This document shows positions 1,024-17,158 of a DNA stretch of 64,000 nucleotides, in pieces. The DNA is taken from assembly GCF_020782235.1 (NCBI RefSeq), contig NZ_JAJGNO010000006.1, forward strand, positions 1 through 64,000, given 5' to 3'. Both the position numbers and the translations under genes were made by a program. Position 1 is the stretch's first letter. Every line of letters starts with the position of its first letter. Below the pieces are notes generated by a model. It was not told the origin of the DNA. It saw only the letters and a list, made by a program, of their open reading frames with translations, and did not search any database. This stretch comes from Sphingobium naphthae (GTDB lineage: Bacteria > Pseudomonadota > Alphaproteobacteria > Sphingomonadales > Sphingomonadaceae).

Positions 1024-1806
1024 TCACAACCCTATGCCTCCGGCAGACCCGGTGCGGTTCACTATCTTTATAGTGCACCGTACTGGCTCCGCGGCCTGCT
1101 CCGCCGCCCTCTCGCACGCGTCGATCGTGTCACGGTTCGCCTGTCGCATATCGGCGGCATCTACTATGGCCTGCCAACCTTCCGGGTTCTCGGTGCGCAT
1201 CAGGCGAATGCCTGCTTCCCACAACGATGGCTGCCCCATGGTGCGCACTGCGAGCCTTTCGGGCCAGTTCCAGCCATGGGGCGCAAGGCTCGCCGCCCAT
1301 CCCGGATAGAACAGCCACAGGAGCGCGACCGCGAGCGCTGTGCCTAGGCCGGTGTGAATCACGAGCCGCCGCTGATGATCCTTGTTGCGGATAGCGCCGA
1401 TGGCCCGCATCTGATCGGCATAGGTTTCGCGCAGAAGCGCCTGCGCCTGCTTGATGGACGCCTTGTCCGTTTCCCGCGCCGCTTCGGCTGATATGATGAT
1501 CCGTTCAGCCATGCTCTCCGGGGTCATGCTGAGCGCTTCGGACTCCTTGACCGCCTTCATATGCTTGGCGAACTCGGCCAAGGCGGCGTTAATCTTTGCG
1601 AGCGTGGGGGTATAGTCGGGAACCTCAATGCTCTGTTTCTCGACGGCGATATGCTCAAGAGCGCGGGCGATCACCGCCAAGCGCCCGTCAAGCCGCTGCT
1701 CCATCGCCTCCACGCGCGCCGCCAGGTGCGCGAACGCCTCCGCCGCCGTGCCGTTTGGTCTTTCGGGTTCCGGGCCGTTCAACAGGGATTGTTCGTCCAT
1801 ATGCAC
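1024..1806 (-). CDS. DUF6118 family protein (TraA-linked)
   Basis: A 260-aa protein beginning 11 bp after the traA stop codon, so probably cotranscribed with it. Residues about 20-150 are rich in Ala, Glu and Lys and probably helical or coiled coil. One hydrophobic segment near residues 152-170 (TALAVALLWLFYPGW) suggests a single membrane anchor, with a C-terminal tail of about 90 residues. Proteins of this type recur directly downstream of Ti-type traA relaxase genes in sphingomonads. No biochemical function is known to me. The family call comes from the neighbourhood and overall character rather than a catalytic motif. Confidence 0.65.
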   Translation of the reverse strand: MHMDEQSLLNGPEPERPNGTAAEAFAHLAARVEAMEQRLDGRLAVIARALEHIAVEKQSIEVPDYTPTLAKINAALAEFAKHMKAVKESEALSMTPESMAERIIISAEAARETDKASIKQAQALLRETYADQMRAIGAIRNKDHQRRLVIHTGLGTALAVALLWLFYPGWAASLAPHGWNWPERLAVRTMGQPSLWEAGIRLMRTENPEGWQAIVDAADMRQANRDTIDACERAAEQAAEPVRCTIKIVNRTGSAGGIGL

Positions 1807-4800: not shown

Positions 4801-4832
4801 ATGACCTGAACGGAGAAATGGAAGATCGCCAT
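1818..4832 (-). CDS. traA: Ti-type conjugative relaxase-helicase TraA (MobQ)
   Basis: A DNA strand transferase that nicks oriT, stays bound to the 5' end and unwinds the transferred strand. About 1004 aa from ATG 4832 (an upstream TTG is in frame, but MAIFHFSVQ is the usual family start). The N-terminal MobA/MobL domain has the AAAYRA motif with the likely catalytic Tyr25 and metal ligands H125, H137 and H139 (PHAHVML). A RecD/TraI-like helicase follows, with Walker A GYAGTGKS at 369-376, VIDEAG near 438-443 and VTIHKTQA near 650. The length fits intact family members. It diverges from traC/traD across the oriT candidate, as in Ti plasmids, and is followed by DUF6118. No coupling protein or type IV secretion genes are visible in the window. 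Confidence 0.93.
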   Translation of the reverse strand: MAIFHFSVQVIGRAHGRSAVAAAAYRAAERLHDERLDRGHDFTNKAGVVHSEILLPEGAPERFSDRATLWNEVEATEKRKDAQLAREVEFAIPREMNQQQGAALAQDFVRAEFVDRGMIADLNVHWDMDPNGQPKPHAHVMLAMRQVGEDGFGAKVRGWNRTELVEQWRERWAEHVNTRLAELDIDARIDHRSLEAQSIDLEPQDKIGPAASRMGARGLESERIEDHRAIAQRNGDRIIADPSVALNAITHHQATFTRRDLAIFVHRHSEGKEQYDRAMSAVRASPDLIALGKDGRGEDRFTSLDMIETEQRLQRALELMAERERHRTEEKAREAALDSAEGRGLLLSGEQRAAFEHVTGDRDLGIVVGYAGTGKSAMLGVAREAWERSGFEVRGVALSGIAAEGLENGSSIASRTIASMEYGWAQGRDLLTSRDVLVIDEAGMVGTRQMERVLSHAEAAGAKVILVGDAEQLQAIEAGAAFRAIHERHGGVEITEIRRQHEDWQKDATRHLATGRTGEAIRAYADHGMVHAAETREQARGDLIDRWDAARQAEPGKTRMIFTYTNDEVRTLNEKARDKRRDAGELGDDARVKTANGDRDFASGDRVMFRRNERSLEVKNGTLGTIEQVNQQSMTVRTDDGRSVAFYLKDYRDLDHGYAVTIHKTQAVSVDRTHALATPGMDRHGTYVVLTRHREGVDFHYGRDDFKDDRRLVRTLSRERAKDMASDYERRDPAQQFAERRGISFGERVAEIVRPVVEKARGIFDGLRLSLPGQDRVAPAIPEAQRGMFDGLDLGRFASPPVHDPARQQQREPDPQLMRVGGLRGAVERYAKAVDAIRQTRAQGIDAMPHQREALDKARDALDAIRPESSTDLNSAFRAGPELIREAAEGRGHEAVRAMQAEAEIRIDPFQRADRFVEGWQQLQRQHQELVRDGNFRAAKTTAQHMADMAKSLERDAQLESVLGLRSRELGLEIGQDMGRSIGRDLAASIPFDHGRGISRGMER

Positions 4833-4861
4833 AACGATCGTCAATTTACTATCTCAAGCGC

Positions 4862-4893
4862 ACGTCGGCACGACGTATAAGCGCGCCCTCCTC
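4862..4893. other. Candidate origin of transfer (oriT), Q-type
   Basis: This site lies in the short gap between traA and traC. A perfect inverted repeat, ACGTCG-GCA-CGACGT (4862-4876), is followed after one base by TAAGCGCGCCCTC (4878-4890). The second block closely resembles the nick region of Q-type origins such as RSF1010 (core of the TAAnTGCGCCCT type), and the hairpin-then-core order is the same. The position between divergent traA and traC genes matches the oriT of Ti plasmids. The sequence match is observed; function is inferred. Confidence 0.7.
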
Positions 4894-5003
4894 GAATAAA
4901 ATCCGAGCAGGGATTATGCGGTGTCATCCCGTCTCATCGTCTCTACTGCATCATGCGAGACGTTGATCTAGAACCACTCTCACGGGAAGCGATGGAGACT
5001 GTC

Positions 5004-5309
5004 ATGCGCAAACTAAGGGACTATGATTCGGAATTGAAGGCGCTTGCTGGCAAGGCGAAGGCGCTCAAGGAAAGGCGTGTGCGCCAGCTTGGCGAGTTGG
5101 TCGTTGCTTGCGGGGCCGATGCACTTGACGCCGATCTACTCGCGGGCGTGTTGCTCGATGCCGTCGCCAGCAAGGATGTCGCTGCAAGGGAGGGCTGGCA
5201 TCGAGCAGGCGCGGCCTTCTTTCGCGGCAAACAACGCGAGCCTGCGCCGCGATCTGAACGCCAGCGGACAAGCGCTCTTCCGCTCGAAGGCGGCACGGCA
5301 TCGCGTTGA
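5004..5309 (+). CDS. traC: Conjugal transfer protein TraC-like
   Basis: A 101-aa protein with MRKLRDYDSELKALAGKAK followed by a Lys/Arg-rich helical stretch, QLGELVVACGADALD, and a GAAFFRGK end followed by a variable tail. This is the pattern of the small TraC/TraD accessory proteins encoded opposite traA in rhizobial and sphingomonad elements. They are thought to help relaxosome formation at oriT. The start at 5004 is preferred because GGAG lies about 8 bp upstream; an in-frame ATG at 4953 lacks a ribosome site. The gene is transcribed away from oriT and followed by traD. Confidence 0.72.
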   Translation: MRKLRDYDSELKALAGKAKALKERRVRQLGELVVACGADALDADLLAGVLLDAVASKDVAAREGWHRAGAAFFRGKQREPAPRSERQRTSALPLEGGTASR

Positions 5310-5346: not shown

Positions 5347-5655
5347 ATGAAGCGCAGAGAAAGAACGCGCCACCTGATCGAGCTTGGTGGCTTGGTGGTC
5401 AAAGCCGGTCTGGTCGATCTGACGGACGATGATCGCGCAACGCTCTATGGCGCGTTCCTGGTCACGGCCGACCGGCTGCGCGGCGAGGAACGGGCGAACG
5501 CGCTGACGCTCTGGCAACGCAAGGGCAAGCGCGCGTTTGCAGCTGACGCATTGCTCGATGCGGCTCGACCCGTCATAGGGCAGCGCCATGGAAGAACAGA
5601 CGAACGCGATCATCCTGCGCGTGCTGGAACGCGCGCCCCAATGGATAAGGCATGA
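5347..5655 (+). CDS. traD: Conjugal transfer protein TraD-like
   Basis: About 102 aa. The core RTRHLIELGGLVVKAGL followed by DDDRATLYGAFL and an ALTLWQRKGKRAFAAD segment is characteristic of the small TraD accessory protein of Ti-type transfer systems. ATG 5347 gives the expected MKRRERTRHL start. The open frame continues upstream with coding-like sequence (5218-5346), so a slightly longer protein from an alternative start is possible. The gene ends inside the following DUF6771 gene (68-bp overlap). It probably acts with TraC and TraA at oriT. Confidence 0.7.
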   Translation: MKRRERTRHLIELGGLVVKAGLVDLTDDDRATLYGAFLVTADRLRGEERANALTLWQRKGKRAFAADALLDAARPVIGQRHGRTDERDHPARAGTRAPMDKA

Positions 5656-6129: not shown

Positions 6130-6243
6130 TGTGACGACGGCAAAGAACCACTATTTACCCTATTGCACTTCTGCGATTATTCGTCTTCTGCCGAATGCCA
6201 TCACTACAGCATTTCCCTTCCCACCGAGCGAGAGACCGGCCAC

Positions 6244-6729
6244 ATGTCCAACGACGTCATTCCACAAGAGACTCTTGTCACCCTGACCGCTGATATTGTC
6301 GCTGCTCATGTGTCCAACAATTCCGTGAGCGTCAGCGATGTCTCGCAGCTGATCGCCAATGTGCATTCGGCGCTTTCCACGCTCTCCGTGCCCCAGCCGG
6401 TGGAAGAAGCAAAGCCCGAACCGGCCGTGTCAGTGCGCGCGTCGGTCAAGCCGGATTACATCATCTGCCTGGAGGATGGGAAAAAGCTCAAGATGCTCAA
6501 GCGCCATCTGATGACCCAGTATCAGATGACGCCCGACGAATATCGTGCCCGATGGAGCCTGCCCGCCGATTATCCGATGGTCGCGCCCAACTATGCCGAA
6601 CAGCGCCGCACCTTGGCCAAGAGCATCGGCCTAGGCCGCAAGCCCAAGGCAGCAACCGCGACAGCCGTCAAAGCACCCGCCAAGCGCGGCCGGAAGGCGA
6701 AGGTGGAAATGAAGTCCGAACCGGCCTGA
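6244..6729 (+). CDS. MucR/Ros-family zinc-finger transcriptional regulator
   Basis: A 161-aa protein. The core YIICLEDGKKLKMLKRHLMT, then DEYRARWSLPADYPMVAPNYA and LAKSIGLGRK, is the MucR/Ros DNA-binding domain. Putative ligands are Cys75, Asp78 and His88; the usual second His region reads TQYQ. The N-terminal 50 residues match the oligomerisation region (LTADIVAAHVSNN). The C-terminus is a Lys/Ala-rich tail. MucR proteins bind AT-rich targets and often repress horizontally acquired genes. This copy lies in the accessory element and may regulate transfer genes. ATG 6244 matches the conserved family N-terminus. Confidence 0.9.
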   Translation: MSNDVIPQETLVTLTADIVAAHVSNNSVSVSDVSQLIANVHSALSTLSVPQPVEEAKPEPAVSVRASVKPDYIICLEDGKKLKMLKRHLMTQYQMTPDEYRARWSLPADYPMVAPNYAEQRRTLAKSIGLGRKPKAATATAVKAPAKRGRKAKVEMKSEPA

Positions 6730-6740
6730 CGCCCGTAGGG

Positions 6741-7061
6741 TCAGCGGCGGTCTCCCCATAGCCATTGATCAAATGGCGCGGGGCCGCCGCAAACCCGGCG
6801 AATGACCTGCCGCAGGCATCGGTACGCGGTTCGTTCAAAGGTCCACATGCGTCGGGCGATCTGGCGCGTGTTCAGCCCCTCATGGCAGAGCTGGAGGACC
6901 GCAGAGTGGGTGTCCGACAGGCTGAAGACGATGACCGTCATGACGGCTTGCGCGTCGTCGCCACCCTCGCGCCATTCGACCGGTAGGCTGTAGCCCCGCC
7001 TACGTAATCCTTCCTCGCAATAGGCGCGGTAGCGTTCACGTAGCTTGCGTTCGGCCCGCAT
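6741..7061 (-). CDS. Small helix-turn-helix protein (second of an overlapping pair)
   Basis: A 106-aa protein from ATG 7061, with GGGAGGGG about 10 bp upstream as a strong ribosome site. Residues about 40-90 (SDTHSAVLQLCHEGLNTRQIARRMWTFERTAYRCLRQVIRR) look like a LuxR/sigma-region-4-type HTH. The start lies inside the end of the preceding HTH gene in another frame. Either the two are translationally coupled, or they are one protein split by an indel in the G-run near 7070-7076. I do not recognise a named family. Confidence 0.5.
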   Translation of the reverse strand: MRAERKLRERYRAYCEEGLRRRGYSLPVEWREGGDDAQAVMTVIVFSLSDTHSAVLQLCHEGLNTRQIARRMWTFERTAYRCLRQVIRRVCGGPAPFDQWLWGDRR

Positions 7062-7351
7062 GATCGGCGCGCCCCTCCCATTCGGATCGAACCGCGCCGC
7101 GTCTCGGCTTCCAACTTTGCCGCAATCGTCGCCAGGGCTTCGGCAAGGCACGCCTCGACGGTAGGGATGTCAATATCCAGCCGGTCGGCAATTACTCGAT
7201 AATTTCGTTCATCCCTGCGGTGCATCAGGAGAACTGCGCGCAGAAGCGGCGGAAGGCCATCCACCAAACCTTCATAGGGCGTCTTAGGATCGAGAAGCGG
7301 ATAAGGAGAATGCCCCATGTCTTGCCGCATCGGTTCGAAGCTGGCGGACAT
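6938..7351 (-). CDS. Small sigma-region-4-like HTH protein (first of an overlapping pair)
   Basis: The ATG at 7351 uses the last base of the upstream stop codon (TAATG), so translation is coupled to the preceding gene. Residues about 25-75 (LPPLLRAVLLMHRRDERNYRVIADRLDIDIPTVEACLAEAL) resemble sigma region 4 with the usual HTH spacing. The C-terminal 55 residues, which overlap the next gene, look non-native and may be read-through after a frameshift. It is probably a regulator of the accessory cassette. No close named family was recognised. Confidence 0.5.
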   Translation of the reverse strand: MSASFEPMRQDMGHSPYPLLDPKTPYEGLVDGLPPLLRAVLLMHRRDERNYRVIADRLDIDIPTVEACLAEALATIAAKLEAETRRGSIRMGGARRSCGPNASYVNATAPIARKDYVGGATAYRSNGARVATTRKPS

Positions 7352-7986
7352 TAGATTGACTCTTTTCTGCGTCGCTGCCACCCGCTTGGCCGAGGATGCC
7401 CCGTGATAGCATGCACGCGGTCGAGCAAGGCGCGCAGCAGCGGCATGGCCTGCTCAGGAGAAAAGCCGCCGTCATCGGGTTCCGGCTCACCGAACAGGCG
7501 AGGCGTGTTCCACCGGCAATAGGGGGTGAGAACAAGCGCGAGACGCGCCATTTCAGGACAGTCATGGCCAAACCCGGTGGCATTGGCGTAGGCGAGCGAC
7601 TTAGCGACGCGGAGGCCGATGTGGCGCGCATTCCATGTATCCGAGAAACCAACGTCTAGCAGATGGGCGGAAAGGCCAAGCTGGGCGACGATCCCGGCAC
7701 GATAGAGAAAATCGTGCCGGCCCATTCCATATTCTCGCCAGCGATGGGGCATGAACGCTTCGGCCCGGTGATAGCGCACGCGGCTGAGGCGTCGCCTCTC
7801 CCTTGTCCGGATGAGGATGGCGGGTTCGTCCTCATGGGTATCGTGCAGCCTGGCCAGCGCATCGCTCCAAGGGGGTGCCGGAACGGCAAGCGCCGCGACG
7901 GGCGCAATGGTCAACGCCTGTAGCAGCGCGCGGCGAGACGTTGGGGCACCGACCGAATCAGTGGAAGAAAAATTGCGTGAAATCAT
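7351..7986 (-). CDS. Hypothetical protein, first gene of a coupled minus-strand cassette
   Basis: A 211-aa protein from ATG 7986, with GAGAGA 7-8 bp upstream. The N-terminus has SRRALLQALTIAPVAALAVPA, resembling a short Tat-like or Sec signal without a full twin-arginine motif. The rest is mixed alpha-helical with Trp/Arg-rich patches (PHRWREYGMGRHDFLYRAG) and no recognisable catalytic motif. It overlaps the next gene as TAATG and diverges from the RHH gene. I do not know its function. Membership in the mobile element suggests an accessory role. Confidence 0.6.
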   Translation of the reverse strand: MISRNFSSTDSVGAPTSRRALLQALTIAPVAALAVPAPPWSDALARLHDTHEDEPAILIRTRERRRLSRVRYHRAEAFMPHRWREYGMGRHDFLYRAGIVAQLGLSAHLLDVGFSDTWNARHIGLRVAKSLAYANATGFGHDCPEMARLALVLTPYCRWNTPRLFGEPEPDDGGFSPEQAMPLLRALLDRVHAITGHPRPSGWQRRRKESI

Positions 7987-8756: not shown

Positions 8757-8960
8757 ATGTCGAACGCAGACCGTATCATCCGAATGAAAACCGTCCTGGC
8801 CCGCACCGGGCTTTCCCGCTCCACCCTATATCGCAAGATCGCAGAAGGCAGCTTTCCCCGGCAAGTGCCGATCAGCATTCATGGCACCGGTTGGCATGAG
8901 TCCGCCGTCAACCGATGGATCGCCAATCCCGCCGCCTACCACGAGGAGCGCGTCGAGTGA
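8757..8960 (+). CDS. AlpA-family regulator/excisionase
   Basis: A 67-aa protein. RIIRMKTVLARTGLSRSTLYRKIAEGSFPRQVPI followed by WHESAVNRWI is the AlpA/MerR-like winged HTH of phage and island regulators. Such proteins activate integrase expression or act as directionality factors in excision. ATG 8757 follows a GAAGG site by about 9 bp. A strong hairpin begins right at the stop codon. The integrase gene is convergent and next door, the usual pairing in P4-type islands. Confidence 0.88.
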   Translation: MSNADRIIRMKTVLARTGLSRSTLYRKIAEGSFPRQVPISIHGTGWHESAVNRWIANPAAYHEERVE

Positions 8961-9013: not shown

Positions 9014-10204
9014 CTACGCGCCATGACGAAGGGAATCGAGGTGATCCGACCAATGTTGCATCATGCGCACACGCTCGTCCCAATATTCGCCGCGCGTGTA
9101 GGCCCGACGCACTGCGTTGTTATCGCAATGGGCAAGCTGCCGCTCGATAGCGTCGGGGTGCCATAGCCCCATTTCGTTGAGCAGCGTCGCAGCCATCGCC
9201 CGAAAGCCGTGGCCGGTCATTTCGTCCTGGGCGAAGCCCAAGCGCCGCAGCGCCGCATTGATGGTATTTTCCGACATAGGCCGGTCCACCGAACGCAGCG
9301 ACGGAAACAGGTATCTGCTATATTCCTCGTCATGCTCGATAGTTTCGAGAATGGCGAGCGCCTGCCGGGAAAGCGGGATGCTGTGGATCCGCCGCATCTT
9401 GGTCTTGTGCTTCGGGATAACCCAGAGGGCCTGGTCGAAATCGAAGTCCGCCCATTCGGCAAAGCGAAGCTCGCCGGGCCGCACGAATACATGGGGCAAC
9501 AGCCGAAGCGCCGCCTTGGTGTTGGCGTGCCCCTCGAATGCTTCGATGGCGCGAAGCAAGCCGCCCGCCCCGTTGGCACTGGTGATCGCGGCCCGGTGGA
9601 CAGGCTGGGGTGCAATCAGCGCGCCGCGTAGATCGGCAGCAACGTCGCGCTCGGCGCGGGCCGTCGCGATGGCGTAGCGCAATATTTGGCTGGCAGTGCT
9701 CCGAAGCCGCTTTGCCGTCTCGTAACGACCCTTGCTCTCCATCTTGCGGAGCATGATAAGAAGCTCCGGCGCGGTGATAGAGGCGATAGGGCGCTGGCCG
9801 ATGGACTGGTTGATGAAGTCCAGCAGCCAGCGCAGTTTCTTCATGGTGACAGCGGAACGGCCTTCAAGCTCGACCTTCACAAGCCATTCGTCAGCTACGG
9901 CCTTGAAACTATTGGATGCGGCGACTGCCGCCGCGATCTTTTCCAGCTTGATCTGCTCGGCCGGATCGCAACCGCGTGCAAGAACCTTCCGAGCTGCGTC
10001 CCGCTGCTCGCGAGCTTCGGCTAGGCCGATGCCGGGGTAGACGCCGAACGCAAGAGTCTTTTGCTTGGCCATATGGCGATAGTTCATGCGCCAGTACCGG
10101 CCACCGTTGGGCGTCACATACAGGAACAGCCCGTCGCCATCGGTAAGCTTGTAGGGCTTTGCGCGGCCCTTGGCTTTAGTGATTGCAATAGCGGTAAGCG
10201 CCAT
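9014..10204 (-). CDS. int: P4-type tyrosine integrase
   Basis: A site-specific recombinase of 396 aa. It has an N-terminal DUF4102 arm-binding region (residues 1-85, KPYKLTDGDGLFLYVTPNGGRYWR), a core-binding SAM-like domain (about 100-195) and the catalytic domain. Visible catalytic residues are R242 (VRPGE), H332/R335 (GHGFR), H359 (AHCD) and Y369 (RRAYTR), with a Lys around 265-269, so it looks intact. The start is 164 bp from the 3' end of tRNA-Glu and is read away from it, the standard position for islands integrated at a tRNA 3' end. Confidence 0.93.
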   Translation of the reverse strand: MALTAIAITKAKGRAKPYKLTDGDGLFLYVTPNGGRYWRMNYRHMAKQKTLAFGVYPGIGLAEAREQRDAARKVLARGCDPAEQIKLEKIAAAVAASNSFKAVADEWLVKVELEGRSAVTMKKLRWLLDFINQSIGQRPIASITAPELLIMLRKMESKGRYETAKRLRSTASQILRYAIATARAERDVAADLRGALIAPQPVHRAAITSANGAGGLLRAIEAFEGHANTKAALRLLPHVFVRPGELRFAEWADFDFDQALWVIPKHKTKMRRIHSIPLSRQALAILETIEHDEEYSRYLFPSLRSVDRPMSENTINAALRRLGFAQDEMTGHGFRAMAATLLNEMGLWHPDAIERQLAHCDNNAVRRAYTRGEYWDERVRMMQHWSDHLDSLRHGA

Positions 10205-10367
10205 GATGGTATCTCCGACAAGGGGAGGACCGCGCTACCATCAGATATACCATCTAGACGGTGGTATCCGATGGCACGAAGCCGCTCCGTATGGAATACC
10301 TATACCACGAATATCCGCAGAAATCCGCCATTCCTGGCACTTCCTGAAACCCTCTGGGAGAGGATTT
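10205..10367. other. Attachment-site region with GATGGTAT repeats between int and tRNA-Glu
   Basis: GATGGTATC lies at 10205-10213, inverted copies of GATGGTA at 10236-10242 and 10248-10254, and a GGTATCC variant at 10263. Repeats around an integrase start and next to the tRNA 3' end resemble integrase arm-type or excisionase sites. The att core is expected at the tRNA 3' end (from 10368). No second copy of the tRNA end was seen in the window, so the distal att site must lie further left. Confidence 0.45.
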
Positions 10368-10442
10368 TGGTGACCCCTACGGGAATCGAACCCGTGTTTC
10401 AGCCGTGAGAGGGCCGCGTCCTGACCGCTAGACGAAGGGGCC
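10368..10442 (-). tRNA. tRNA-Glu (CTC)
   Basis: A 75-nt cloverleaf with encoded CCA on the minus strand. The acceptor GGCCCCT pairs with AGGGGTC (one G-T). The D-arm has CTAGCGGTCAGGAC. The anticodon loop CTCTCAC gives anticodon CTC, and the T-arm is CGGGTTCGAATCCCG. Its 3' end faces the integrase and probably forms the right attachment site of the element to the left. Confidence 0.95.
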
Positions 10443-10534
10443 GTCGGCCGCATCGGCGGCCGGCAGGGGGAGCGCTTTAGCAGTCCCCGCAGGAGCGTCA
10501 AGCGAAAGCGGTCGCTTTGCCGTCGCCGCTCCAT

Positions 10535-10564
10535 AAAAAACCACCCCATGCAAGCATGGGGTGG
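10535..10564 (-). terminator. Rho-independent terminator of sapC
   Basis: On the minus strand a 10-bp stem (CCACCCCATG/CATGGGGTGG) with a 4-nt loop is followed by TTTTTT (10535-10540). It lies about 170 bp downstream of the sapC stop. The rest of the gap 10443-10735 holds further GC-rich hairpins (around 10444-10464 and 10583-10605) without T-tracts and no gene. Confidence 0.85.
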
Positions 10565-10735
10565 CCAAGGTTCAGGGAGGAGACGCCTCCAAAGGGGGAG
10601 GCGCCCATACGACACACCCGAAAGGGGGGCAGGTGCGCCGCATGATTGATAGATAGGGCAGCGCTATCCGCCTTTCAAGGGGGAAGCGATGCCCTGTCCG
10701 CCAGTAGATGGAGCCCGCCGCGCGGCGGGCTCGGC

Positions 10736-11536
10736 TCAGCCTTCGGCCGGCGTCGCGGCGTTGGCGGGCGCCGCCGGCGCGTTAATCGGGCCCTTGCCCT
10801 GGCTGATCTGCGCTTCGAAGATTTCGCGCATCAGCTGCAGCGAGAAGAGATGCGCGTAGATCAGCGGCAGCATGCCGCTCTGGTTGATCTTGCGCAGCTG
10901 GTCGCCGCGCAGGTCGCGCAGCTTTTCCTCGTTGATCATGCGGAAGCCGCGATAGACGAAGGGCTGATCGGCGATCGGCGTCTGGATCGACACTTCGCCG
11001 TCCATCAGCAAATCCATTTCCTGCAGTTCGCGAACGAACTGGCCGGTGCGGGCAGCGGCCTGCTCGAAATCCTCGCAGAATTTGAGCACGCCCTGCGTCA
11101 GCTCGCTGGGCTTGCCATCCTCGAACAGCGGCGTGCCTTCGTCGAAAGCGCCGAGCGCCGGGCTGGTCGGGTCGAAGCAGAGCGACAGCTCTTCGCTGTC
11201 GGGACGCAGCTTGGCGAGCATCCAGGGGTAGCGACGGACATAGGCGGGCACATAGGCCGGGCCGCGCAGCTTGCCCTCGTCATCCAGGAAGATGTTCACG
11301 CCTTCGTTGAGGCCCATCAGCAGCAGCGGCACGGAATCCGAACCGGCCGAAAAGATGATCGGCGCGAAGCGCTGGGCGGTGACGAATTCGTCGATCGTCA
11401 GCGGCACGGCATGCTGGCTGGTGAGGAACGGCGCCGAATCGACGTTGCGGCTCTTGTAATCGGCATGGTCCACCGTGCTGAGCGGCAGCAGGTCGTTGTA
11501 GAAGATCGGCAGATTGTTCGCGGGCGCAGTCGCCAT
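10736..11536 (-). CDS. SapC family protein
   Basis: A 266-aa protein. The N-terminal half (residues about 10-60, LPIFYNDLLPLSTVDHADYK) and the segments RFAPIIFS, PLLLMGLNEG and YVRRYPWM follow the SapC family, first named from an S-layer secretion locus in Campylobacter. The C-terminus ends in an Ala/Pro-rich tail. No signal peptide or membrane segment is visible, so it is probably cytoplasmic. Its role in sphingomonads is not established. ATG 11536 (MATAPANN) is preferred to ATG 11548, whose purine stretch sits too close to serve as a ribosome site. The gene is followed by a terminator. Confidence 0.85.
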   Translation of the reverse strand: MATAPANNLPIFYNDLLPLSTVDHADYKSRNVDSAPFLTSQHAVPLTIDEFVTAQRFAPIIFSAGSDSVPLLLMGLNEGVNIFLDDEGKLRGPAYVPAYVRRYPWMLAKLRPDSEELSLCFDPTSPALGAFDEGTPLFEDGKPSELTQGVLKFCEDFEQAAARTGQFVRELQEMDLLMDGEVSIQTPIADQPFVYRGFRMINEEKLRDLRGDQLRKINQSGMLPLIYAHLFSLQLMREIFEAQISQGKGPINAPAAPANAATPAEG

Positions 11537-11668
11537 GATCAGGTCCATTCTCTCTTATGGCGACGCCAAGTCGATGCGCCGCGGGCCTCAAGATTGGGGC
11601 AGGGCGATAAAGGCCTTGCCGGTCGGGTGCAATCGCTTTGTCGGCGCGACGTCGCGGCGGCGACGGGC

Positions 11669-13186: not shown

Positions 13187-13621
13187 TTGCTTCATTCCGT
13201 CCTGCTGCTTCTCGCCGCGCCTGCCGCAGAGCCCGTGCAATGGGCCCAGATGACGATCGAACGCCGCGTGATCATCCGCGTGCCGATGGCGCGCAAGGGC
13301 AAGGCGCCGCCGCGCGCCACCCCCGAAGCGAGCGACGACTGGGACGAGAAGAAGGGGCCGCGCTGCATCGCGCTGCGGTCCATCCGGGGCGCGAGCATCG
13401 TCGTGCGCGATGGCGTCGATCTGCTGTTGGCGGACCAGCATCGTTACCGCGCGCGCCTGGAGCGGGGCTGCGATTCGGCGGGCTTCTATTCGGGCTTCTA
13501 TGTCGAGCCGCATGAGGATGGATCGCTCTGTTCGGGCCGGGACGAACTGCAGGCCCGCAACGGCATGAGTTGCGCGATCGACGCGTTTCGCCGCCTCGTC
13601 GCGGCGGATGATGACGATTAA
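13187..13621 (+). CDS. Hypothetical exported protein
   Basis: A 144-aa protein starting at TTG 13187. The first 14 residues (LHSVLLLLAAPAAE) form a short Sec signal peptide. The mature part has RRVIIRVP, a basic Pro/Ala loop, then CIALRSIRGASIVVRDGVDLLL and four cysteines, and ends with an acidic Asp tail. No known domain was recognised. The protein looks genuinely coding and sits between the FAD dehydrogenase (divergent) and rhlE. Confidence 0.65.
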   Translation: MLHSVLLLLAAPAAEPVQWAQMTIERRVIIRVPMARKGKAPPRATPEASDDWDEKKGPRCIALRSIRGASIVVRDGVDLLLADQHRYRARLERGCDSAGFYSGFYVEPHEDGSLCSGRDELQARNGMSCAIDAFRRLVAADDDD

Positions 13622-13744
13622 GCCGGCTTATCGTCGTAAAATCGCCTGAATTTCTTGACATCGGCGCGATATTTCCGCAAGTCGCGGCCGATTTCCGTAC
13701 TGCGGACGCGCAGTGCGCACTTTCCTCCTGTCCCGGACTCTTGA

Positions 13745-15130
13745 ATGACTTTTGCCGATCTCGGCCTCTCCGATGAATTGTTGAAGGCCGTCACCGAGGC
13801 CGGTTACGATACGCCCACGCCGATCCAGGCGCAGGCGATCCCGCCGGTGCTGATGATGAAGGACATTATCGGCATCGCGCAGACCGGGACGGGCAAGACC
13901 GCCAGCTTCGTGCTGCCGATGATCGACATTTTGGCGCATGGCCGCGCCCGCGCGCTGATGCCGCGCAGCCTGATCCTGGAGCCGACCCGCGAACTGGCGG
14001 CGCAGGTGGCCGAGAATTTCGAGAAATACGGCAAATATCACAAGCTATCCATGGCGCTGCTGATCGGCGGCGTGCAGATGGGCGATCAGATCAAGGCGCT
14101 CGAAAAAGGCGTCGACGTGCTGATCGCGACGCCTGGTCGCCTGATGGACCTGTTCGAACGGGGCAAGATCCTGCTCAACGGCTGCAGCATGCTGGTGATC
14201 GACGAGGCGGACCGGATGCTCGACATGGGCTTCATCCCCGACATCGAGCATATCTGCACCAAGCTTCCGGCGCAGCGGCAGACCTTGCTCTTTTCCGCGA
14301 CGATGCCGCCGGTCATCAAGAAGCTGGCCGACCGCTTCCTCAGCAATCCCAAGTCGATCGAGGTCGCCCGGCCGGCGACCGCCTCCACCAACATCGCTCA
14401 GCATCTGGTGAAGGTGGATTCGCGCAAGAAGCGCGAGGCGCTGCGCGCGCTGCTCGACGATCAGAAGGTGCAGAGCGCCGTCATCTTCTGCAACCGCAAG
14501 ACGACCGTGCGCGAACTCAACAAGAGCCTGCAGAGTCATGGCTACAAGTCCGGCGAAATCCATGGCGATATCGACCAGAGCTCGCGTCTGGCGGAGCTTG
14601 AGCGGTTCCGCGATGGAACGGTCAACATCCTCGTCGCGTCGGACGTCGCGGCGCGCGGCCTCGACATCAAGGGCGTCAGCCACGTCTTCAACTTTGACGC
14701 GCCCTGGCATCCGGATGATTATGTTCACCGCATTGGCCGCACCGGCCGCGCCGGGGCCAAGGGGGTCGCCTACACCTTCGTGACCAATGAGGATGCGGAG
14801 GCGATCGACAATATCCAGAAGCTGATCGGCACAAAGATCGATTATGCTCCGCTGCCCGGCGGCGCCAGCGAGGGCGCCTCTTCCAGGAAGGACAAGGAAG
14901 ACAAGCCCGCGCCGGCCAAGCCCCGCCGCGAAGAGCGTCGCGAGGAAAAGCGCGGCGAAGAGAAGCGCAGCGAAGAGAAGCGTGGCGAAGAGAAGCGCAG
15001 CGAACGGCGCCGCGACGATCGCAGGGATCGCCCCGCGACAAAGCGTCACAACTCTGCGAACGAGGATGGGCCGGACGAAGGCTGGAACGGGCCCGTGCCG
15101 GAATTCCTGTCGGTGGGCTTCAGCAACTAA
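13745..15130 (+). CDS. rhlE: DEAD-box RNA helicase, RhlE type
   Basis: A 461-aa ATP-dependent RNA helicase, probably in ribosome assembly, RNA decay or cold adaptation. The motifs are in order: Q motif (YDTPTPIQAQ, 21-30), AQTGTGKT (45-52), PTRELA (80-85), DEAD (153-156), SAT (184-186) and HRIGRTGRAG (about 325). After residue 385 comes a charged, low-complexity tail with a repeated EEKR(G/S) unit, which probably binds RNA non-specifically. An upstream gap of about 120 bp may hold the promoter. Confidence 0.93.
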   Translation: MTFADLGLSDELLKAVTEAGYDTPTPIQAQAIPPVLMMKDIIGIAQTGTGKTASFVLPMIDILAHGRARALMPRSLILEPTRELAAQVAENFEKYGKYHKLSMALLIGGVQMGDQIKALEKGVDVLIATPGRLMDLFERGKILLNGCSMLVIDEADRMLDMGFIPDIEHICTKLPAQRQTLLFSATMPPVIKKLADRFLSNPKSIEVARPATASTNIAQHLVKVDSRKKREALRALLDDQKVQSAVIFCNRKTTVRELNKSLQSHGYKSGEIHGDIDQSSRLAELERFRDGTVNILVASDVAARGLDIKGVSHVFNFDAPWHPDDYVHRIGRTGRAGAKGVAYTFVTNEDAEAIDNIQKLIGTKIDYAPLPGGASEGASSRKDKEDKPAPAKPRREERREEKRGEEKRSEEKRGEEKRSERRRDDRRDRPATKRHNSANEDGPDEGWNGPVPEFLSVGFSN

Positions 15131-15242
15131 TCAGCAAGTCTAAAGACGGAAGTCGTAGTATTTCCGTCATATTCTCTGCGGAGTTGTAACAATGCGGCGC
15201 TAAGGATTCGCTCCCAAGGACAGTGTTTCTGGGGACCGTATC

Positions 15243-16118
15243 ATGAACGCCATCACGCGCTTGCCCTTCCTTGGGGAGATGGAAGAAGGCGCTGACGACC
15301 AGCTCCATATCCCCGAGCGGGAAGGGGAGCGTCGCCGGTATCGCACCATCTGGATTTCCGACATCCATCTGGGCACGCGCGGCTGCAACGCCACGATGCT
15401 GATCGATTTCCTCGACAGCGTCGATAGCGAGACCATCTATCTAGTCGGCGACATCATCGACGGATGGCGGCTCAAGAAGCGTTTCTACTGGCCGCAGGCG
15501 CATAATGACGTCGTCTGGCGCATCATGAAGCGCGCCAAGCGCGGCACCCGCGTAGTGTATATTCCCGGCAATCATGACGAAATGTTCCGCCAGTTCACCG
15601 GCATGAGCTTCGGCGGCGTCGAAATCCGCCGCAAGGCGATCCACACGACCGCCGACGGGCGCAAGCTGCTGGTCCTGCATGGCGACGAATTCGACACGAT
15701 CATGCTGGCGCATCGCTGGCTCGCCTTCGTGGGCGACGCGGCCTACACGATGATGATGCGGCTCAACGTTGTCGTGAACGCCGTGCGCCAGCGCATGGGG
15801 CTGCCTTATTGGTCGCTCAGCAAGATGGCCAAGCACAAGGTCAAGAACGCCGTCGAATTCATTTCGAAGTTCGAGGATGTCGTTGCGCATGAAGCGGCGA
15901 CGCGCGGCGTGGACGGCGTGGTGTGCGGTCATATCCACAATGCGGAGATGCGCGAGATCGCCGGCGTGCAATATTATAATGACGGCGACTGGGTGGAAGG
16001 CTGCACGGCGCTGGTCGAGGATTTCGAAGGCCGGATGGACGTGCTGCACTGGGCCGACGAGATCGCCGCCCGGACCGCCCAGGAGACGGCGAAACAGTCC
16101 TCCCGGCTCGCTGCTTGA
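15243..16118 (+). CDS. UDP-2,3-diacylglucosamine diphosphatase-like metallophosphoesterase
   Basis: A 291-aa calcineurin-type phosphoesterase. Metal-site motifs are DIHLG (D40, H42), GDIIDGW (D70), GNHDE (N110, H111), HGDEFD (H146) and GHIHNAE (about 222). This LpxH-related group removes UMP from UDP-diacylglucosamine in lipid A synthesis. Since sphingomonads replace lipid A with glycosphingolipids, the real substrate here may differ. It overlaps the reading frame of the downstream glycosyltransferase, so the two form a unit. The N-terminal 33 residues are acidic and extra to the fold. Confidence 0.82.
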   Translation: MNAITRLPFLGEMEEGADDQLHIPEREGERRRYRTIWISDIHLGTRGCNATMLIDFLDSVDSETIYLVGDIIDGWRLKKRFYWPQAHNDVVWRIMKRAKRGTRVVYIPGNHDEMFRQFTGMSFGGVEIRRKAIHTTADGRKLLVLHGDEFDTIMLAHRWLAFVGDAAYTMMMRLNVVVNAVRQRMGLPYWSLSKMAKHKVKNAVEFISKFEDVVAHEAATRGVDGVVCGHIHNAEMREIAGVQYYNDGDWVEGCTALVEDFEGRMDVLHWADEIAARTAQETAKQSSRLAA

Positions 16119-16129
16119 CGGAGGAGCCA

Positions 16130-17158
16130 GTGCGGATCGCGATCGTTACCGACGCCTGGTCCCCGCAAGTCAATGGCGTGGTGCGGACGCTGCAGACGAT
16201 CCAGGGCGAACTGGAGCGCATGGGCCACCCGGTCAAGGTCATCTCGCCCGACCTTTACGGGTCGATCCCCTGTCCGACCTATCCTGAAATCCGGCTGGCG
16301 CTGGTGCGGTCGAGCGTTGTGGGGCATGAGATTGCCGCCTTCCGGCCAGATGCCGTCCATCTGGCGACCGAAGGCCCGCTCTGCGTCGCCGCCCGGCGCT
16401 GGTGCCTGCGCAGCGGCGTGCCCTTCACCACGGCCTATCATACGCATTTTCCCGATTATGTCGCCCAGCGGACCGGGCTGCCGGCCTCCTGGTTCTGGCG
16501 CTATATCCGCTGGTTCCACGGACCCGCGCAGGCGGTGCTGGTGTCGACCCGGTCGGTACGCGAGCAGTTGCGCGCCCATGGCGTCGCCAAGGTGCGGCCG
16601 TGGGGCAGGGGCGTGGATCTGAGCGCCTTCACGCCCGACGCGCCTGCGCCCGCGCTCTTTGCCGATCTGCCGCGGCCGATCATGCTCTATGTGGGGCGTG
16701 TCGCGGTGGAGAAAAATCTGGACGCCTTCCTGGCAGCCGATCATCCCGGCACCAAGGTGGTGGTCGGCGACGGTCCCGCACGCGCCGCGCTGGAGCGCGC
16801 CTGGCCGCAGGCGCGCTTCCTGGGGCCGCTGTTCGGCAAGGAGCTTGCCGGAGCCTATGCGGGCGCCGATGTCTTCGTCTTCCCCAGCCGCACCGATACG
16901 TTCGGCCTGGTCATGATCGAGGCGCTGGCCTGCGGAACGCCGGTGGCGGCTTTCCCCGTCACGGGCCCGGTCGATATCGTCACGCCGGAGACCGGCGCCC
17001 TGTCGGAGGATCTGGGCCAGGCGATCGGCGCGGCGCTGGAGCGGGACCGCGCGGCCTGCGCCGCCTATGGCCGCAGTTTCAGCTGGGAACGCAGCGCGCG
17101 CGAATTCCTGTCGGGGCTGCACGCCATCGATCCGGAAGTGATCGAAAGCGCCGCCTGA
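16130..17158 (+). CDS. GT4-family glycosyltransferase
   Basis: A 342-aa protein from GTG 16130, which sits 5 bp after GGAGG; a TTG at 16115 overlapping the upstream stop is an alternative. The N-terminus RIAIVTDAWSPQVNGVVRTL is the GT4 donor-fold start. VYVGR-like MLYVGRVAVEKNLDAFL and FVFPSRTDTFGLVMIEALACGTPV (about residues 245-270) carry the E-x7-E retaining motif. Members with this neighbour transfer mannose or another sugar to a membrane lipid, so a role in envelope glycolipid synthesis is likely. A terminator follows. Confidence 0.88.
   Translation: MRIAIVTDAWSPQVNGVVRTLQTIQGELERMGHPVKVISPDLYGSIPCPTYPEIRLALVRSSVVGHEIAAFRPDAVHLATEGPLCVAARRWCLRSGVPFTTAYHTHFPDYVAQRTGLPASWFWRYIRWFHGPAQAVLVSTRSVREQLRAHGVAKVRPWGRGVDLSAFTPDAPAPALFADLPRPIMLYVGRVAVEKNLDAFLAADHPGTKVVVGDGPARAALERAWPQARFLGPLFGKELAGAYAGADVFVFPSRTDTFGLVMIEALACGTPVAAFPVTGPVDIVTPETGALSEDLGQAIGAALERDRAACAAYGRSFSWERSAREFLSGLHAIDPEVIESAA

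Follow-up and report, generated by a model that had tools for sequence, protein, structure and literature searches.

A predicted Q-type origin of transfer beside traA in a putatively mobilizable element at a tRNA-Glu gene of Sphingobium naphthae

The window analysed here is the initial 64 kb of the 322,836-bp contig C45 in the 4.28-Mb genome of Sphingobium naphthae (G000). It holds a relaxase gene, traA, two genes of the TraD family oriented divergently from it and, further to the right, genes for regulators, an integrase gene and a tRNA gene, as follows.

1024-1806, minus strand: DUF6118 gene downstream of traA, present also in the element of a relative (G019) and in plasmid NC_008036
1818-4832, minus strand: traA, encoding a MobQ relaxase with a RecD-like helicase, 1004 amino acids (profile matches, structure alignment)
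4833-5003, plus strand: predicted oriT region between the divergent traA and TraD-family genes, a layout kept in 30 of 30 genus loci fetched
4862-4876, plus strand: hairpin ACGTCG-GCA-CGACGT with covarying stems, a likely relaxase recognition site
4878-4889, plus strand: nick core TAAGCGCG/CCCT, with the predicted nick between 4885 and 4886
5004-5309, plus strand: relaxosome accessory gene of the TraD family, occupying the traC position (PF06412)
5347-5655, plus strand: second TraD-family accessory gene (PF06412)
6163-6729, plus strand: gene for a Ros/MucR-type regulator, start codon provisional (PF05443)
8757-8960, plus strand: gene for an AlpA-type small regulator, a candidate excision factor (PF05930)
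9014-10204, minus strand: tyrosine integrase gene (profile matches; best 80 of 105 related loci kept)
10368-10442, minus strand: tRNA-Glu(CTC), the putative integration site, with a 16-bp att core (10368-10383) at its 3' end

The product of traA scored above the cut-offs of three profiles, with 244.9 bits against 26.7 for PF03389, 255.9 against 200 for NF041496 and 909.5 against 590.45 for TIGR02768. These matches indicate a full-length Ti-type TraA with a MobA/MobL relaxase domain and agree with the MobQ assignment given in the initial annotation. The protein also aligned with solved MobQ relaxases (4ht4, E 1.7e-31; 2ns6, E 6.7e-7). The genes to the right of the gap had been named traC and traD; both match the Pfam TraD family, and 'traC' is a name by position only. 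A sigma-region-4 gene was additionally noted in the element at 6938-7381.

Taking the likely start codons, ATG at 4832 for traA and ATG at 5004 for the first TraD-family gene, the gap between the two genes measures 171 bp. Hairpin and core together span 4862-4889 within it. The stem arms ACGTCG (4862-4867) and CGACGT (4871-4876) enclose the loop GCA (4868-4870), and a single spacer base, A, at 4877 is followed by TAAGCGCGCCCT at 4878-4889. The presence of a hairpin and a nick core between traA and the TraD-family gene was thereby confirmed. The initial annotation had placed the core directly after the hairpin; the hairpin is as it described, but the A intervenes, and the string as first written, without this base, has no match in the genome.

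An inverted repeat followed by TAAGNGCG/CCCT and adjoining a relaxase gene defines a Q-type oriT, and this arrangement was found here with one spacer base. MobA of RSF1010 is described as cleaving CAGTTTCTCGAAGAGAAACCGGTAAGTGCG/CCCTCCC behind an inverted repeat, and the RSF1010/R1162 oriT likewise consists of a hairpin and then the core (PMC4814116). The window core differs at a single base from the RSF1010 nick core, TAAGTGCG/CCCT, and the closeness claimed at the outset thus holds in relation to a substrate cleaved in vitro. In comparison with RSF1010/R1162, the window shows C for T at one base, the additional spacer base, a stem of 6 bp as opposed to the 10-bp inverted repeat described there, a relaxase fused to a helicase and an integrated carrier (PMC4814116). 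The nick position, 4885/4886, is predicted by analogy with RSF1010.

The exact core TAAGNGCGCCCT had a single occurrence in the window, and 100 dinucleotide shuffles yielded none. A pattern combining a 6-bp stem, a loop of 3-4 nt, a spacer of 0-2 nt and TAAGNGCGC[C/A]CT was likewise found once, and in none of 200 Markov simulations. The core alone, with one mismatch allowed, stood at chance level (1 found against 1.00 expected), and the folding of the 68 nt around the hairpin was not unusual (z -1.27; 24 of 200 shuffles equally good). The evidence for a predicted oriT is the combination of hairpin and core, its place and its conservation.

Matches to TraA were present in 50 of 61 same-genus genomes searched. 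From more than 150 such matches, 30 loci were fetched, including the best-match loci and the window's own, and all 30 (window counted) carry the hairpin and core upstream of traA. The core reads ATAAGCGCGCCCT in 17 loci and ATAAGCGCGCACT in the other 13. Six standard stem pairs are formed in 28 of the 30, and five in L071 and L072. The layout extended to four of five plasmids fetched from outside the family, three of which have quite different stems: AGTTGC/GCAACT in the Rhizobium and Methylorubrum plasmids, and CGTCGC/GCGACG, with the core TAATTGCGCCCT, in the Sinorhizobium plasmid. In the stretch searched of Acidiphilium pACMV2 the core was not found. Across 38 rows with 10 distinct stems, 59 of 60 cells were paired; when the 3' arms were shuffled 10,000 times, a procedure that ignores kinship, no arrangement paired equally well.

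The distance from the traA start to the hairpin is 30 bp, a plausible position for an operator, and repression of these promoters by relaxosome proteins is reported for Ti plasmids. A site serving solely as operator or terminator of the divergent genes would suit such a position. The covarying stem, and a nick core common to RSF1010 and to a short MobQ relaxase locus elsewhere in the genome (C19), argue against a purely regulatory site, and the two roles can coexist; we regard the exclusively regulatory reading as highly improbable.

The initial annotation had not seen that the element stands at a tRNA-Glu gene beside its own integrase. The integrase gene stands before the 3' end of tRNA-Glu(CTC), that is, next to the putative integration site, as in an integrative mobilizable element (IME), and the element therefore looks integrated. 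In the complete elements of relatives G019 and G001, two att cores lie 15.1 and 27.6 kb apart, respectively, with traA and the integrase gene between them. Both of these elements thus have att repeats at their two ends; in the genome under study the second core is on another contig and its flank is mismatched. In ten genomes the match to window positions 10200-11600 ran without interruption from the integrase side across the tRNA. For seven of these (G000, G001, G007, G015, G019, G029 and G036) traA is listed on that contig, no more than 20 kb away, and for G006, G014 and G031 none is listed within that distance. The cargo of the 27.6-kb G001 element (L036:4711-19151 and L037:4232-8879) includes Tad (TadE/G-like), GGDEF, EAL, AIPR and HEPN-domain proteins, and in the G019 element an ECF sigma factor gene meets a protein-kinase gene (L038:4340-7269).

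Searching with the window's integrase yielded 105 relatives. The best 80 were retained, with DNA covered to about 10 kb on each side at most. Among these best 80 of 105 loci, 51 have a 15-base att core, 24 have traA (counted when more than 150 aa aligned) and 20 have both. Twenty-two traA starts were visible in 21 of the loci, L106 having two, one of them on the other side of the integrase. All 22 show the hairpin-core layout, with the CCCT core 46-47 bases upstream; several genomes are represented both here and among the 30 genus loci. In L144, TTAAG replaces ATAAG in the core; the integrase of L151 is a more distant one, and that locus has no att core. ARAGORN was run on 60 of the 80 loci and named tRNA-Glu in 43 of them. 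In Sphingobium sp. SYK-6 (L091), tRNA-Glu lies at 9762-9836, the integrase gene at 10001-11188, the core at 13401 and traA at 13446-16469. Of the 51 loci with the att core, 31 show no traA within the DNA covered, which for some of them extends 11 kb downstream. Four of these (L103, L104, L105 and L112) show a CCCT core near the locus end; in the remainder, traA may be further off or missing altogether.

None of the 1,021 plasmid records matching the integrase reaches 60% identity, which fits a predicted chromosomal integrase lineage. The genome itself has no second full-length integrase close to that of the window (next best 48%). Integrase fragments 75-77% alike the window's, covering only the C-terminal end, were noted at C43:53415-53713 and are likely the remnant of another such element.

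Contig C45 begins in a transposase of IS4/5 type, inside the element. The only second att core outside tRNA-Glu genes in the genome, a 16-bp core at C3:154323, adjoins 119 nt that resemble the left end of the G001 element at 72% (for G019 the figure is 70% over 127 nt). The flank of this core is found in relative G004 on a different contig than tRNA-Glu, and the left flank of G004 itself has a counterpart on C48. Because of this mismatch, the att core does not fix the size and full content of the present copy; the att-like end on C3 may stem from a rearrangement, from a second insertion or from use of a secondary site. The left flanks of four relatives did not align with one another, and no empty site emerged from their comparison. 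At C3:154323-156200 (L023) the core stands beside an MFS gene, followed by transposase genes towards the contig end. On C48 (about 212480-214083, L089) unrelated DNA, with what by eye resembles a chloride-channel gene, occupies the place where G004 has tRNA-Glu, just beyond a tRNA-like stretch, and may represent an insertion hot spot.

The transposase at the contig end, the displaced att-like end and the integrase fragments elsewhere in the genome might be taken as signs of decay, in which case the oriT and traA would be as described here, in keeping with the main reading of the site, in an element that no longer moves. Against decay, traA, both accessory genes and the integrase gene are open reading frames, the core is exact, and traA is 94% alike over 228 aa in another genome. 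A decayed element is accordingly judged unlikely.

Contig C45 gave no match to VirB4 (PF03135) or to the coupling protein (PF02534), in a search directed at the TrbE/VirB4-type ATPase and the TraG-type coupling protein. Elsewhere in the genome VirB4 matches were located on C6, C9 and C33, and coupling-protein matches on C6, C33, C8, C44 and C1, the last two being lower-scoring. Since the contig end cuts the element, the absence of pore genes applies, for this copy, to its readable part. In the complete elements of the relatives, no T4SS families were detected in the called ORFs scanned (10 of 12 in G019 and 10 of 28 in G001), which included all those of at least 445 aa apart from traA, itself found by tblastn. 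Nor were T4SS-like genes present in any of the 24 traA-bearing integrase loci, in the DNA covered (about 10 kb each side at most). A tblastn search of all 80 loci with the VirB and coupling proteins of the genome under study gave matches in L158, L159 and L167 only, none of which has traA, and these matches show that the test was able to find such genes.

The integrases of L158, L159 and L167 share 60-61% identity with that of the window and lie beside VirB4- and VirB10-like genes, with a VirB11-like gene also in two of the three; these loci are probably ICEs with a related integrase. Such neighbours, the VirB4 genes on other contigs of the same genome and the start of the contig inside the element would accord with a complete ICE whose pore genes lie beyond the contig end. 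The scanned ORFs of the complete G019 and G001 elements and the 24 traA-bearing loci speak against a complete ICE, and L158 sits at tRNA-Leu; we consider such an element quite unlikely. The initial proposal, a mobilizable element that has an oriT of its own and would use the pore of another element, is supported by the lack of pore genes in what could be read. Contig C6 carries a run of genes of the VirB1-like, VirB4, VirB5-like, VirB6, VirB8, VirB9, VirB10, VirB11 and VirD4 types, and this VirB-type system is a possible candidate helper.

Taken together, the site is very probably the oriT of an IME located at the 3' end of a tRNA-Glu gene that would borrow the pore of another element, as predicted from the sequence features of the locus. 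Excision of the element as a circle would be carried out by the integrase, perhaps with the AlpA-type protein. TraA, aided by the two TraD-family proteins, would bind the hairpin at 4862-4876, nick after TAAGCGCG, between 4885 and 4886, and stay on the 5' end, CCCT. The strand would then exit through a coupling protein and a pore supplied by another element of that cell. With the strand polarity predicted here, the accessory and integrase side would lead and traA would enter last; in the recipient, the circle would be closed and then integrated at tRNA-Glu.

Elements of this kind are already known as traACD IMEs, and that of the window is a new example. Those of Mesorhizobium (IMEMl R88B-like) are described as chromosomal and as inserted in most cases at tRNA genes; their oriT, as in the window, lies between Ti-like traA and traC genes transcribed divergently (PMC8627217). 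The window element differs in its sphingomonad host, its tRNA-Glu site, its two TraD-family genes and an AlpA gene situated near the integrase, where the Mesorhizobium elements are described as having an RDF gene downstream of traA; their relaxases are filed there as MOBF, in contrast to the MobQ assignment by NCBIfam obtained here (PMC8627217). According to a 2017 review, no IME then described from Proteobacteria was canonical, with its own relaxase and without a T4SS (PMC5704250); the Mesorhizobium elements appear to be of this canonical type. The tra region of Ti plasmids similarly has an oriT between traC and traA and a Ti-type TraA, classed as MOBQ2 (PMC6546132). Unlike the Ti plasmid, the window element is integrated and has no match to a TrbE/VirB4-type ATPase or TraG-type coupling protein on its contig.

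Within Sphingobium, pPDL2 of S. fuliginis has been called an integrative mobilizable element and is described as helper-mobilized, not self-transmissible, and as recombining at a seryl-tRNA site (PMC3516476). Like the window element, it has an integrase, a predicted oriT and a tRNA gene whose 3' end holds the attachment site, there attB. It differs in being a replicating plasmid, in the seryl tRNA as the place of attB and in an oriT compared with that of pLB1; the protein tested was RepB rather than a MobQ TraA (PMC3516476). The F plasmid of Sphingopyxis alaskensis, NC_008036, typed as mobilizable and MOBQ, shares the core, traA, two TraD-family genes and the DUF6118 and AlpA genes with the window, but is a 28.5-kb plasmid record with hydrogenase cargo and no integrase annotated. 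It was considered as the excised circle of such an element and rejected for want of an annotated integrase. Among the matches listed in the open-licence literature, no paper on a sphingomonad tRNA-Glu element family was recognised.

The genome carries three MobQ relaxases with three different cores. That of the window has the loop GCA and CCCT, that on C8, a 46-kb contig, has the loop GCAA and CACT, and that on C19 has the stem GCAAAC and TAAGTGCGCCCT. This last relaxase, a short one, is encoded together with its hairpin and core on a 7.9-kb contig (C19:1-7935, L013) that looks like a small mobilizable plasmid. All 22 cores of the integrase loci read GCGCG/CCCT with a 3-nt loop. Among the 30 genus loci, a 4-nt loop accompanies each of the 13 CACT cores, and no contig carrying one exceeds 192,095 bp; 7 of the 17 CCCT cores are on contigs of more than 1 Mb. 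A tentative and rather doubtful reading is that the integrated elements of sphingomonads (CCCT) and their plasmids (CACT, small contigs being putative plasmids) use two insulated nick dialects. NC_008036 and Jannaschia p1, both plasmid records with CCCT, are exceptions. In the relaxase tree the 13 CACT rows and C8 grouped with one CCCT row, that of Jannaschia, and the forks were without strong support; that dialect follows relaxase clade is thus a tendency only. Were it true that a TraA reads only its own dialect, co-resident elements would share pores without cross-nicking. The CCCT/CACT split makes the relaxase-oriT specificity of co-resident elements testable in one genome with three relaxases.

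The 28 bp of hairpin and core offer an exact target for nicking and mobilization assays. Sphingomonads are known for passing on pollutant-degradation genes, and the present findings point to a family of MobQ-mobilizable elements, integrated at tRNA-Glu, that is distributed across this group.
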